From IMG/VR virus record IMGVR_UViG_3300035633_000504, positions 1 through 30,533 of that record: a stretch of 30,533 bases of DNA; one strand, written 5' to 3'. Every line of letters starts with the position of its first letter. The first letter of the stretch is position 1. The translations under genes were made by a program, and so were the position numbers. The notes under the pieces were generated by a model, which had not been told where the DNA came from, made no database searches, and saw only the letters and a program-made list of their open reading frames with translations. Below are positions 18,276 to 23,720 of this stretch, in pieces. This DNA is from a virus.

Positions 18276-20642
18276 TTAAGTAATTGGTGGTCTGCCCATT
18301 GAAAAAGCCCATGCTCTGTTTCTTAATATGTATGCAGGATCTCTAACGTCAGTATCAGCATATCCTGGCGCTGGTTCAGCGATAGCATCATTATTAGATG
18401 GAGTGGTTGCTGCAGCTACTGCCCCTGCAGTTTCTTTTGTAACATTTATTAATTCATCAATTTTTTTAAGTAATGAAACATTGTTACTTGATTGATCTCT
18501 TGTGCGAAATTCATTTAAAGAATTTATAACATGTTCAAATTCAGAATTATCTTTTAATAATAAGACATTATCTTTTTTATTAAAAGGCATTTTAACCCCA
18601 GAACGCCATATAGCATCATCTGCTTTTTCTGTTGTATGCATTTTTCTGGTTTTAGCTTCCCATGCAGCTTTTTCTTTTCGTTTTTTAATAGCAAATGCTG
18701 CACCTTTTTTTCTTTTTACAGGCACGCCTCCCTCTGTCATTTCAATTTCTTCGTCATCAATTGATGATATTAAACTTAATGCACCTTTACGTTCATTCTC
18801 TAATTCTTCAATCATGCTCATATAATCTTCTTTTATATTAGCTAAACGTTCATATTCCACTCCGGATGCATGTTGCATTAACTTTAAATATCTTTCGACT
18901 AAATCTCTTTTATGTTGAATTTCTTCTGCCAAAACTTGCTCGCGTTTATATGCCGCTTTTTCTCTCTCTTCTTCAGGCATTCCGGCAATTCGTTCTTCTT
19001 CTGCCTGCGATCCTTTTATTAGGCGTTTAACACGTTTTCGTTCTTCACCTTCAAAGAATTGTCGTTTCGTAGAATCCCACCACAATGTAATGTCAGTTAT
19101 GAATTGGTACATTCCTTCAAATATAGATTCGAATGTATCTGTAAATGCTTCTGCTAAATCTTTCCATGTTGTACCAAGAGGCTCTAATAATTCATCCGCA
19201 TATTGTTGTATTTCTTCATCTGTTTGAGCAGTAACAATTTTAAATATTTGGTCTATTAACCATACAAAATTATTGAACCATTCTTGATCGGATAACCAAT
19301 TTGCAAATGTTTCTTGATATGATTGTATTGTTTGTGCTACTTTTGAGCCTCCGAAATATCCTGCTATTGCCCCTAATGCAATACCAAGTAAGCCACCTAT
19401 AATAACTCCAGGAATACCACCCACACTACCCATTATAGCACCAATACCACCCCATTTTATTGATTGCATTATAGCATTTTTTAACCCACCTTCACCACCA
19501 CCTAATGCTTTGCCTACAGCTGCATTTAAATTAGTTGTACCCCATTCTTCTCCCTTAAACCAACCAGTAAATGCATCGATAGCAGTCCATCCTAATAATG
19601 CTAATAATGCAACTTGAGGCGTTTTAGATATTAGTGCAGAAATACTTGCAGGCAATGCGCCCAATCCCATCGCTCCTGCTACACCTAAAATAGCAGAGCC
19701 AAGCCATCCTAATATTGTACTAACTGCTTCTATAGGATCATCCCCAAATATTTTTTGTATCCAAGATTCCTCTGCTGCCCCAGGCAAATCAATAGAAGTA
19801 GTTGGTATGTTTTTCATTATTGCTATTAAATCTTTTTCAACATCTTTGCCTATACTTTTAATAGAAACATCAACTATTTTATCTTCTACTAATGTTTGAA
19901 ATCCACCTCTTTTTCTTTGTGTGCCTTTTAATTTAGAACCAGATGTATCTTCTATTTCAATATTATCTGCTTTTGATCTAAGCCTGTTTATCAAATCTTC
20001 TTGCGCTGATATCCATTCTGTTTTTAATTCTTCCTGTGTTTCATCGTCTATTGCAAATAAATCATATATCGTTATTTTATCTTTAATGTCCAATGTAATA
20101 TCATCTAATTTTTCAATTATATTATTAGTGATATCAGTCATGCGCATTTTGTTTTCATTTGCTAAATCTTCTTCATACCCCATTATGGCATCAAGATTTA
20201 TCGGGGATTCTTCAAATGCAGCTATTCTATTACGATTGGCCTCTATTAATGCATCTGATGTTTCAATAAATATATCTTCTATATTTTTTGTAATATTAAT
20301 ATTATCAACAGTTACATTATCAATGCTCTCTTTGAATTTGCTTACAACACTTTCGGAAAACCCGTCTAGTTCTTCATCAAAATCTGCTAATACTCGTTCT
20401 TGAATACTATCATTTATTTTAGCTGTATCAATTGTAATGGGATCTATTTGAGATGGACGAGGGCGCATCATATTCATCATAGGTTGAATAACTTGTTTAT
20501 AAAAGTCATTTGCAAACCTATCATTATCATGAATACCTTCTTGAATCATATCTAAAAGGTCATCTTTAGTAATTTTCTCGCGTGGTCCCTGCTCGGGGCT
20601 AGGTCCAAACACATTCTCAAATAAATTTTCAAGATCAGCCAT
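18276..20642 (-). CDS. 29: Tape measure protein (T4 gp29-like)
   Basis: The protein sets tail length and is expelled on infection. It has 788 residues (T4 gp29: 590). Residues 1-290 are predicted long helices with many Asp/Ile/Asn. Two strongly hydrophobic, Gly/Ala-rich segments lie at about 307-360 (ILGWLGSAILGVAGAMGLGA and VALLALLGWTAIDAF) and 397-432 (IGAIMGSVGGIPGVIIGGLL and on). These are typical of membrane-inserting tape-measure regions. From 520 on the sequence is highly charged coiled coil (RVKRLIKGSQAEEERIAGMP, KRKKGAAFAIKKRKEKAAWE). It follows the tail chaperone with its frameshift extension, the classic arrangement for tape measures. An AAGGA site lies at 20651-20655, nine bases before the ATG. 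Confidence 0.85.
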   Translation of the reverse strand: MADLENLFENVFGPSPEQGPREKITKDDLLDMIQEGIHDNDRFANDFYKQVIQPMMNMMRPRPSQIDPITIDTAKINDSIQERVLADFDEELDGFSESVVSKFKESIDNVTVDNINITKNIEDIFIETSDALIEANRNRIAAFEESPINLDAIMGYEEDLANENKMRMTDITNNIIEKLDDITLDIKDKITIYDLFAIDDETQEELKTEWISAQEDLINRLRSKADNIEIEDTSGSKLKGTQRKRGGFQTLVEDKIVDVSIKSIGKDVEKDLIAIMKNIPTTSIDLPGAAEESWIQKIFGDDPIEAVSTILGWLGSAILGVAGAMGLGALPASISALISKTPQVALLALLGWTAIDAFTGWFKGEEWGTTNLNAAVGKALGGGEGGLKNAIMQSIKWGGIGAIMGSVGGIPGVIIGGLLGIALGAIAGYFGGSKVAQTIQSYQETFANWLSDQEWFNNFVWLIDQIFKIVTAQTDEEIQQYADELLEPLGTTWKDLAEAFTDTFESIFEGMYQFITDITLWWDSTKRQFFEGEERKRVKRLIKGSQAEEERIAGMPEEEREKAAYKREQVLAEEIQHKRDLVERYLKLMQHASGVEYERLANIKEDYMSMIEELENERKGALSLISSIDDEEIEMTEGGVPVKRKKGAAFAIKKRKEKAAWEAKTRKMHTTEKADDAIWRSGVKMPFNKKDNVLLLKDNSEFEHVINSLNEFRTRDQSSNNVSLLKKIDELINVTKETAGAVAAATTPSNNDAIAEPAPGYADTDVRDPAYILRNRAWAFSMGRPPIT

Positions 20643-20653
20643 TATTAATCATC

Positions 20654-20669
20654 CTTTTAAATATTTAGG
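20654..20669 (-). promoter_or_regulatory. CCTAAATATTTAAAAG element before the tape measure gene
   Basis: An identical copy, on the - strand, of the element at 29806-29821. It ends at the ribosome site of the tape measure and overlaps the last codons and stop of the frameshifted chaperone. The leader would be too short for an ordinary promoter-to-gene distance, so its function is uncertain. Confidence 0.3.
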
Positions 20670-21768
20670 TCTGAAGGTATATTTAATCCATCAGGTATAG
20701 GTCCATCATCTGGCATAGATAATGGGTCATGTATTTGTGTACCATTCCTTGCTTGTTGTTGGCGTTTTCTTGTTTCTTCTTGTTCTTTCTCGAAATACCC
20801 CCAATATATACGTCTTTCGATTGGAGTTAAATTCTCTACATATCTTGCTTCAAACCCAATGCCTTTTACTAAGCAATAAATCTCTTGATATATCGTATGA
20901 AGATTTTCACTTAGTATAAGCTTTAAGAAATTGTAAAAAAACCGCCATCTACCCCTAACTTCTTCTCATAAGTTTCACCATCAATATCAATGTTTACAAT
21001 TGTAATTTTATTAATTTCTTCTTTGACTTTACTAATATATCCTATAATGCTTTTTAATAATTTCGTTTTGAAACGTTCAATCAATTTAATTCTATCTTTG
21101 AAACTAAATTCTTTCCATTTAGTTATAGGTACAAATTGATCTTCTTGTTTAATAGATACTTTTGATATATACTTAACTATTTCATTAATATATATATCAC
21201 CAATTAGCTCGCGCATATCATGGCTTGTTTTAACGTCTTGTTTGATTACATCTACATGTTCACGCATTTCTTTCTCTAAGCGATACTCATCACCAACAGT
21301 GAGCATGTCACATTCAATTTTAAAATATTCATCTTCAAATTCTTCTGGATTTATATCTGACAATGTTGATTTAACTTCATTGTAAAGTTTCATCAAATCA
21401 ATTTTTACTTTCATTGGAGATTTATCTTTTAATTGCAGATCGGTATCGAGTTCACCGCCAATGTTTACAATTCTTAAACCTAAAATAAGAGTTAATTTAT
21501 CAATTAATGTCAATTCATCAATGTCGATTGATTCTGCACAATTTTCTTTTAATATATCACGCATAGTAAATATAAATTCTGTTTTGAATACAGGAGAATC
21601 AATAATGGATTTAGCTAATCGTTTTTGTTGTGATGTGTTAATATCGCGAAATCTAACTTCTCTTTTTAATGATGGAACCCAATAACCTGATGCGTATGCA
21701 TCTTCATTTTTTGTAATTTCTTTTAATATTGAATCGATTGAATCAAAATCATCCTTAACTTCGTTCAT
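20657..21768 (-). CDS. Frameshifted (-1) long form of the tail assembly chaperone
   Basis: Reading the chaperone to its tandem TTT TTT codons (complement of 20940-20935) and slipping back one base gives TAC as the next codon and opens 92 further codons, to a TAA at 20657-20659, for a product of about 370 residues. The extension begins YNFLKLILSENLHTIYQEIY, continues through ARYVENLTPIERRIYWGYFE and a Gln/Arg/Glu-rich helix, and ends PSDLNI. It has no start codon of its own before a late Met, yet it has protein-like composition and fills the whole gap before the tape measure. This is the G/GT arrangement known from many tailed phages. The sequence supports it directly; actual frameshifting is inferred. 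Confidence 0.8.
20923..21768 (-). CDS. Tail assembly chaperone / baseplate hub assembly protein (gp26/gp51-like), frame-0 product
   Basis: The 281-residue protein starts behind a GGAGA site at 21776-21780. SGYWVPSLKREVRFRDINTS (27-46) matches the start of the T4 gp26/gp51 baseplate family ('VPS..KEV.FR...'). The rest is helical and charged (RLEKEMREHVDVIKQDVKTS, KFSFKDRIKL-type segments). By position, directly upstream of the tape measure, it is expected to act as a tail assembly chaperone, like lambda G. Its last codons are GGT TTT TTT ACA ATT TCT TAA, containing the slippery run described in the next entry. In the unshifted frame it ends only three residues after the slip site. Confidence 0.8.
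   Translation of the reverse strand: MNEVKDDFDSIDSILKEITKNEDAYASGYWVPSLKREVRFRDINTSQQKRLAKSIIDSPVFKTEFIFTMRDILKENCAESIDIDELTLIDKLTLILGLRIVNIGGELDTDLQLKDKSPMKVKIDLMKLYNEVKSTLSDINPEEFEDEYFKIECDMLTVGDEYRLEKEMREHVDVIKQDVKTSHDMRELIGDIYINEIVKYISKVSIKQEDQFVPITKWKEFSFKDRIKLIERFKTKLLKSIIGYISKVKEEINKITIVNIDIDGETYEKKLGVDGGFFTIS
20935..20941 (-). promoter_or_regulatory. Slippery heptamer T TTT TTT for programmed -1 frameshifting
   Basis: Seven T residues (A on the + strand) follow GGCGG. In the chaperone frame they read as the last base of GGT plus TTT TTT, the canonical X XXY YYZ slippery form. Both Phe tRNAs can re-pair perfectly after moving back one base. The unshifted frame stops four codons later, and the -1 frame stays open for 92 codons. 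Confidence 0.8.
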
Positions 21769-21851: not shown

Positions 21852-23108
21852 ATGGCTGATATAGGTTCATTTTTAGTATCATTATTCCAACCTAACGGGC
21901 TGCATGCTAGTTTTTGGGAAAAGATGACAGCATCTTCCAATACATTAGCCATGTCTCAATTGTGGATGTGTAATATATCTAGAGATACTGTTGAAAATGT
22001 TAATGGTGAAATAGATTTAATTCTTCCTGAAGCTGAACGTGGATGGAGTATAAAAGCAGATAAGCAAATTGCTACAAAAGCAAGTTGGTGGATGGGCGGA
22101 CAATATTGTTTTCTTGTAAAAGGTATGAATATACCACAAGATGGATTAGATGTTAGTAGAGCAGGTGTTGAAAAATCAGGAACGATCAAGGGGCTTATAG
22201 GCTCACAACGTAGAGAGTTAGAAACCGCTAAAATACATTTTTATGAAACTAATCAATCATTTGTTGATTTATTTTTAAGACCTTGGGCTATTTTAGTCGG
22301 ACATAAAAGTTTAAAATATTTTCCTTTGCGTTGGGATATAGAATTAGTATGTTTACAAAAAGCACCAGGCGCGCCTATAGTTCGTAAAAAGTTTATATTA
22401 GAAAATGCTTGTCCCATATCAGTCGATGGTGAAGAATATAATTATACAGCAGATGCTTTAATGAATAGACAAGTAGAATTTGCATACTCAAAGTATAGAG
22501 TTGAAGCTACTGTAGGTACTGATCAATTATATATTCCCCATATATTAATGGTATTGCAAATACTAGGCGAATCGAAATATGGAAGAACGTTTAATATTTT
22601 AAATAATTTATTAGTTGATGTATTAAATTCAGCTCAATTAACTCCAGCGATAGCTAGACTTACAAACAATCCGTTAATTGCAGCATTAACACAGCAAGGT
22701 GGAGATATTAGGGGTGCATTAGAACAACTTGCAGTTGAAGGTGTCTCAGGCGCAGCTGCTACATTAGGTGATCTTTTACCTGGAGTATTAGGTGCAAGTG
22801 AAGTGGGTACACAACAAAGGGGACCTTTACCAGATTTTGGTGCTTTGTTTCAGAATTTTAATCTTCTTAGATCCTTGGGGTTTGGTAATAATACAACAAC
22901 AGCCAATCAAGTGGCTGAACAAGCGGCGAATGATGCTGCATCTACTGTAGGTCAAAGTATAAACCCAGGTGTAGATCTGAGTAATTTAAGTGATGAGCAA
23001 CTTCAAGGATTAAGAGAAGGCATACAAAGAGCACGTGAAGCAGTAGAAAGAGGCGAATCTTCTACATGGGGTCTTACTGATGGTTTAAATGAAATAATTA
23101 GGCCATAA
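21852..23108 (+). CDS. Tail-tube-like baseplate protein (gp54-like tube initiator candidate)
   Basis: The 418-residue protein is transcribed alone on the + strand between two - strand tail blocks. Residues 100-215 carry the gp19/gp54 tube-fold pattern: IHFYETNQSFVDLFLRPWAI, LRWDIELVCLQKAPGAPIVR, KKFILENACPISVDGEEYNY, ADALMNRQVEFAYSKYRVEA. The C-terminal half (from 250) is Ala/Leu/Gln/Gly-rich and probably helical or disordered. In T4, gp54 (320 aa) nucleates tube polymerisation on gp48, and a gp48-like gene is nearby. An AAGGA site at 21841-21845 sits six bases before the ATG. The C-terminal extension has no T4 parallel that I recognise. Other tube-fold roles remain possible. Confidence 0.7.
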   Translation: MADIGSFLVSLFQPNGLHASFWEKMTASSNTLAMSQLWMCNISRDTVENVNGEIDLILPEAERGWSIKADKQIATKASWWMGGQYCFLVKGMNIPQDGLDVSRAGVEKSGTIKGLIGSQRRELETAKIHFYETNQSFVDLFLRPWAILVGHKSLKYFPLRWDIELVCLQKAPGAPIVRKKFILENACPISVDGEEYNYTADALMNRQVEFAYSKYRVEATVGTDQLYIPHILMVLQILGESKYGRTFNILNNLLVDVLNSAQLTPAIARLTNNPLIAALTQQGGDIRGALEQLAVEGVSGAAATLGDLLPGVLGASEVGTQQRGPLPDFGALFQNFNLLRSLGFGNNTTTANQVAEQAANDAASTVGQSINPGVDLSNLSDEQLQGLREGIQRAREAVERGESSTWGLTDGLNEIIRP

Positions 23109-23165: not shown

Positions 23166-23720
23166 TTATGGTAGAATTGAACCATCCCAATCGTCACGTT
23201 GCCACCATTGATAAGCTAAAGTAGCTTGCATAGTTCTTTCAGTACCGTTACCTGTTTGATCATATTCAATATCACCCAATGCAACAGGCCAAATACCAAC
23301 CAATTTAATTGATCTTGCAGGTGTTCCATCTCTTCTGTGAACAATCAACCTTGCAATTGAATCAATACCTTTAGGTGCATAATTACCCGTTGAAGGTGTT
23401 CCTCTATCTGGAAATGCACTAAAGATTTGTGACTGCCAATTAACTAAACGTTCTCGCAAGTCTAATTCTACATCACAACGGAATGTAACAGCCCAAGCAT
23501 CAGAGCCTGGAAAGTGCGCAGACCCTGGTACATTAAATTGCAATCCCATAAATGGAACTGGAATATTATGCACTGAATATCCTGGTAAAACTGCTGTTGT
23601 AATATATACATTATCGTTATGATCAAAAATACCAGCCAAGTCAACTACACGTAATTGAAAATCACGTGAAAAGTCACGATTTACAGCTTGACTGTAAAAA
23701 TTATGTATTCCCATACCCAT
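23166..23720 (-). CDS. 19: Tail tube protein (gp19-like)
   Basis: This is the major subunit of the inner tail tube. It has 184 residues (T4 gp19: 163). The pattern follows gp19: FQLRVVDLAG at 21-30, ITTAVLPGYSVHNIPVPFMG (38-59 region, T4 CKATALPAGIVEKIPVGFMN), AWAVTFRCDVELDLRERLVN followed by WQSQIF (T4 VTVMNDEAHDARQKFVDWQS), and IKLVGIWPVALGDIEYDQTG (T4 IEIKGLWPTNVGELQLDWDS), ending in LAYQWW. The AAGGAG site at 23729-23734 is strong, eight bases before the ATG, fitting a highly expressed structural protein. Sheath and a second tube-like gene lie upstream in the same direction. Confidence 0.93.
   Translation of the reverse strand: MGMGIHNFYSQAVNRDFSRDFQLRVVDLAGIFDHNDNVYITTAVLPGYSVHNIPVPFMGLQFNVPGSAHFPGSDAWAVTFRCDVELDLRERLVNWQSQIFSAFPDRGTPSTGNYAPKGIDSIARLIVHRRDGTPARSIKLVGIWPVALGDIEYDQTGNGTERTMQATLAYQWWQRDDWDGSILP

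Follow-up and report, generated by a model that had tools for sequence, protein, structure and literature searches.

The stretch of viral DNA analysed here (30,533 nucleotides, the whole of IMG/VR record IMGVR_UViG_3300035633_000504; referred to as the window) carries on its minus strand the gene for a short tail-assembly chaperone of 281 residues, TAC-N (20923-21768). The gene is located just upstream of a 788-aa ORF (18276-20642, minus strand), which probably encodes the tape measure protein, the presumed client of the chaperone, as judged from its position, its length and weak matches to PHROG families, among them phrog_1047, named tail associated lysin. Two window genes match the tail tube family phrog_45: 21852-23108 (E 1.6e-4), which lies on the plus strand amid minus-strand tail genes, and 23166-23720 (E 1.2e-24).

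The 3' end of the chaperone gene reads GGC GGT TTT TTT ACA ATT TCT TAA on the minus strand. The slippery heptamer T TTT TTT (20935-20941) lies in the chaperone frame and is followed by an A, with three sense codons remaining before the stop. From position 20941 the -1 frame stays open to a TAA at 20659-20657, comprising the two phenylalanine codons and 92 new codons, and it forms the putative C-terminal, gp51-like domain of a long chaperone form, TAC-NC (20657-20941, minus strand). Within this extension, ATG, GTG and TTG are absent except for one ATG, the 75th of its 94 codons. The preliminary description, made from the sequence alone, had placed the heptamer close to the chaperone stop and the open frame down to 20657 with no early start; both placements are accurate. 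A chance origin of the T run was considered: the AT-rich window holds 22 T7 runs, fewer than the shuffled expectation, and T7 by itself is not rare there, but the site is conserved in relatives, and this is the strong evidence. An in-phase T TTT TTT occurs at the chaperone site and nowhere else among the 5,351 minus-strand codons of the window. At the window's base composition, the chance of a 94-codon open frame is approximately 0.0006-0.001.

Remote homology of the two parts to gp26 and gp51

Single-sequence searches leave the chaperone without a name. Taken alone, the window protein falls below threshold in Pfam and PHROG, tblastn searches of 50,697 phage records with the chaperone or the extension as query returned nothing, and a scan of viral contigs with the single chaperone sequence was likewise empty. 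Relatives forming a clade with the window were recovered via the sheath, the tail tube and an alignment of the chaperone. Three of nine clade chaperones match PF12322, the best at 6e-11 (relative L002), and the clade chaperone alignment matches the gp26 alignment in a profile-profile comparison (E 1.9e-8). A structure search with the AlphaFold model of the window chaperone, which has a mean pLDDT of 77 (moderate confidence), retrieved viral baseplate hub assembly proteins from T4-like phages; a fold search against solved structures in the PDB gave no match. The extension matches the second half of the phrog_634 profile, 'baseplate hub assembly catalyst' (T4 gp51), at E 6.7e-7, as do the extensions of six of eight clade members counted in all, and it aligns with cyanophage gp51 in a profile-profile comparison with hhalign (E 1.2e-8). 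Its model is weak, and a fold search with it gave no significant match. By these profile matches, the window chaperone is a remote homologue of gp26 (PF12322) and the extension belongs to the family of the gp51 C-terminal part, so the early label 'tail chaperone' was right in kind.

The same profiles relate the two T4 proteins to each other. T4 gp26 and T4 gp51 both match PF12322, and only gp51 adds the phrog_634 region; on this evidence they are paralogues, gp51 being the continuous, fused long form and gp26 the short form.

Conservation of the slippery site and the extension

In the window's clade, the junction can be read in ten sequences, counting the window itself, and each has an in-phase T TTT TTT followed by A at the homologous place; one more contig (L002/L022) stops at GAT TTT TTT A. 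These clade proteins share the heptamer while being as little as 32% identical. The motif FFYxFLK opens the extension in every member, and conservation runs from the slippery codons onward. Read in the -1 phase, the first 12 codons of the extension show substitutions in the ratio 124:59:178 at codon positions 1, 2 and 3, a third-position excess that is a coding pattern. Conservation of T7 and of the extension in relatives, proposed at the outset as a check, is thus borne out in the clade. In one contig (L026, 3139-3160) the chaperone frame is broken inside the gene, away from the slippery site, possibly by a sequencing error.

The arrangement extends well beyond the clade. In S-PM2, S-RIM8, Melnitz-1, PhiW-14, Cr30, phi-ST2 and ZPAH1, the heptamer at the end of gp26 is T TTT TTC or T TTT TTT and in phase, and it marks the point from which the -1 frame stays open as gp51. 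In Aeromonas phage ZPAH1 the gp51 part (L030, 2184-2363) is unannotated despite its T TTT TTC and -1 frame. A further 80 viral contigs with cyanophage-type loci were collected via the downstream gp51 motif, and 79 of them have T TTT TT[C/T/A] in phase at the homologous place; the odd locus, L090, lacks a gp26 frame there. Across all 80 loci the heptamers are TTTTTTC (71), TTTTTTT (7) and TTTTTTA (2), counts that come from related sequences and do not represent independent events. Because the search alignment opened with FF, the retrieval itself favoured the two phenylalanines in part, but it did not select for the preceding T or the codon choice. The base ahead of FF is T in 75/75 cyanophage-type loci, compared with a background of 73%, and the first phenylalanine codon is TTT in 77/77, compared with 79%.

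The family is not uniform, since a -1 frame also occurs in Ackermannviridae, where the junctions read GTTTTC or ATTTTC and no canonical heptamer is present. Unannotated gp51-like -1 frames follow gp26 in Serratia phage 3M (L017, 3163-3366) and Klebsiella phage T765 (L028, 2229-2405).

Candidate stimulators of frameshifting

An upstream Shine-Dalgarno (SD)-like element is a more consistent companion of the heptamer than a downstream stem. Averaged over the cyanophage-type set, anti-SD pairing dips to -6.9 kcal/mol for the 8-mers that end 7 nt before the heptamer. At this element, glutamate is written GAG in 46/58 cases, compared with 31% elsewhere. In gp26 genes of the cyanophage type (L010-L016, L032-L111) the element reads GAGGG and precedes the slippery site by approximately 7 nt. 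In the window, the SD-like TAGGGGTAG (20949-20957, minus strand) ends at the same place, 7 nt before the heptamer, with an anti-SD duplex of -6.5 kcal/mol, and is a candidate stimulator. Most other members of the window's clade also have an SD-like element, at 4-21 nt; because its position there is not fixed, a role as stimulator in this clade is only suggested.

Downstream, the search for a stem or pseudoknot that had been proposed earlier revealed no conserved structure. A possible RNA stem-loop of uncertain role is present in the window (20861-20921, minus strand), 13 nt past the heptamer, with a folding energy of -16.4 kcal/mol and a z-score of -3.6 over 75 nt and -0.5 over 60 nt. It has no counterpart in the close relatives L018, L021, L023 and L025, and no consensus structure was found in a 34-sequence alignment of cyanophage-type loci. 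In E. coli dnaX, -1 frameshifting takes place on an A-rich heptamer with an SD-like stimulator ahead of it and a defined hairpin downstream. The window and the cyanophage-type set resemble dnaX in the SD-like element, 7 nt upstream of the heptamer in both, and differ from it in the T-rich site and in the lack of a conserved hairpin across the window's family.

Proposed synthesis of two chaperone forms

The locus very probably makes two chaperone forms, TAC-N and TAC-NC, by -1 ribosomal frameshifting. Frameshifting itself, its frequency, its stimulator and the chaperone function of its products are what we infer from the sequence, as follows. Most ribosomes would read the gp26-like TAC-N of 281 residues and stop at 20923. 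Some would slip one base back on T TTT TTT, where the phenylalanine tRNAs in the P-site and A-site would pair anew with UUU UUU, and would read on to 20657, yielding a TAC-NC of approximately 370 residues whose C-terminal domain is gp51-like and helical. By analogy with gpG and gpGT of lambda, the tape measure protein, the product of the next gene, may be coated by many copies of the short form, and a few copies of the long form may recruit tail tube subunits. The preliminary description had read the locus as a programmed -1 frameshift, and the conservation of both heptamer and extension, together with the homology of the two parts to gp26 and gp51, supports that reading. Further support comes from T4 gp51, in which the two domains form one continuous protein, and from the lack of the heptamer in short genes that have a separate long partner (see below).

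It is highly unlikely that the extension is instead a separate gene with its own start, perhaps expressed by translational coupling. Such a gene is what the annotation of cyanophage gp51 implies, since public records of cyanophage-type phages usually list gp51 as a short ORF of its own that begins further downstream, and one relative (L003/L027) does have an ATG near the extension start, at about codon 11. The only canonical start in the window's extension, however, is the one at codon 75. No start codon is common to the clade extensions; the positions of starts differ among relatives, yet the residues ahead of any start are conserved, and the independent ORF that the preliminary description had named as contrary evidence is thus not a shared feature of the relatives. 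A separate gene would also leave the in-phase heptamer unexplained, and T4 and a sister group of the clade (see below) have both parts fused in one frame.

The long form could also arise if RNA polymerase, rather than the ribosome, slipped on the T run, an explanation that is as improbable as a separate gene. A T7 homopolymer can be slippery for polymerases, and the protein outcome would be identical. Cyanophage-type sites, however, are mostly T6C, which is short for polymerase slippage, and the run always keeps the X XXY YYZ phase. None of the ten clade members has more or fewer than seven T, and in the cyanophage-type set the run is accompanied by the SD-like element 7 nt upstream. Least credible of all, to the point of being excluded, is an error of sequencing or assembly that splits one continuous gene, as the early description had allowed: homopolymers are error-prone and the heptamer sits at the frame break, but the same T7 recurs in nine other, independent clade contigs and an equivalent site is present in cultured, finished phage genomes.

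Probable replacement of the frameshift by two genes

T4 and related phages encode gp26 and gp51 in two separate genes that have diverged. A second two-gene arrangement is found in a sister group of the window's clade (tail tube identity 31-40%). Here two tandem chaperone genes lie ahead of the tape measure position (L121, 6736-8444; L124, 6532-8155; L128, 6323-7901; also L130, L131, L132, L135-L138, L140 and L141). The first, long and continuous, contains both domains, and the second, a short one, stops at the point that corresponds to the end of the window's chaperone. The extension domain is weakly recognised in the long genes of L130, L132, L135, L138 and L005, and the reading of the first gene as a fused long form rests on the better cases L121, L124, L131, L136, L137 and L140. 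Long fused chaperone genes with no recognisable short gene or tape measure adjoining were observed in L126 (6504-7400) and L125 (2694-3584); the large ORF after the L126 chaperone resembles ribonucleotide reductase.

Where a separate long partner exists, the short gene lacks the heptamer (0/17, compared with 10/10 in the window's clade; Fisher p 1e-7, calculated on sequences that are related). In the short genes of T4, L135, L138, L140 and L141 the two phenylalanines are kept and written TTC TTT. In the chaperone tree, T4 gp51 groups with the branch of T4 and the cyanophages, and the long genes of the tandem pairs group with the window's branch. A single duplication common to T4 and the sister group is rejected by a tree test (AU p 0.0098); the duplication in the sister group may have come either before or after its lineage parted from the window's clade, as the test does not reject the later date (p 0.18). 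Frameshifting would be the older state, given its wide distribution. The best reading, and a likely one, is that this older state gave way at least twice, independently, to a pair of genes, one long and one short: in the T4 branch, and as a tandem pair in the sister group, with the heptamer absent from the short gene each time.

Discussion

The layout recalls that of lambda, where the gene preceding the tape measure gene undergoes a -1 shift close to its end and yields a short and a long chaperone, gpG and gpGT (Levin 1993; Xu 2004, 2013, as summarised in PMC5009743). No sequence homology is claimed; the window has another slippery sequence and a contractile, T4-type tail. The same 2016 review (PMC5009743) describes the G-T frameshift as a feature conserved widely among long-tailed phages, with T4 as the exception. 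The T4-like tail assembly chaperones were identified by Vladimirov, Gautam and Davidson (2022, Virology 566:9-15), as reported in PMC10885494 and PMC12846349. According to the PRFect paper (PMC10885494), which cites that work, some T4-like phages carry a short gene and a fused long gene; according to the Adele paper (PMC12846349), which also cites it, T4-like TAC-N genes have poly-T -1 signals. As far as these citing papers convey it, the mechanism is already published for T4-like phages, poly-T signals included, and the window is therefore a divergent new member of a known family.

The earlier remark that gp26 and gp51 are separate genes in T4-like genomes and that frameshifting is not standard there holds in its first part for T4. 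In its second part it does not stand: the two T4 genes are themselves a short and a fused long paralogue, cyanophage-type gp51 is the -1 continuation of gp26, and the family has been in the literature since 2022. With the T4-like chaperones so described, the window shares the gene family, the gp26 and gp51 domains and, in non-T4 members, the poly-T signal. It differs in belonging to a deep clade that stands well apart from the branch of T4 and the cyanophages, in a site that reads T TTT TTT A where theirs is mostly T TTT TTC, and in an extension approximately 25 residues longer at the C terminus. The TAC locus of Vandenendeviridae and Andersonviridae (PMC12846349) is also alike in its poly-T -1 shift between TAC-N and an unannotated C-terminal part; it belongs to other families, and its GTTTTT motif is a shorter T run. 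The GTTTTC and ATTTTC junctions of Ackermannviridae are nearer to this motif than to the window's site. The literature that could be searched contained neither the second, tandem conversion to two genes nor the SD-like element, which is no proof of novelty.

In conclusion, these results place the two-chaperone logic of the lambda type in a deep, uncultured branch of T4-like phages. They also point to a gap in annotation, as gp51 in such phages is most likely the tail of a frameshift product and not a gene of its own. The repeated switch between frameshifting and two genes offers a natural experiment on the purpose of the frameshift, which would be to hold the ratio of short to long chaperone constant.
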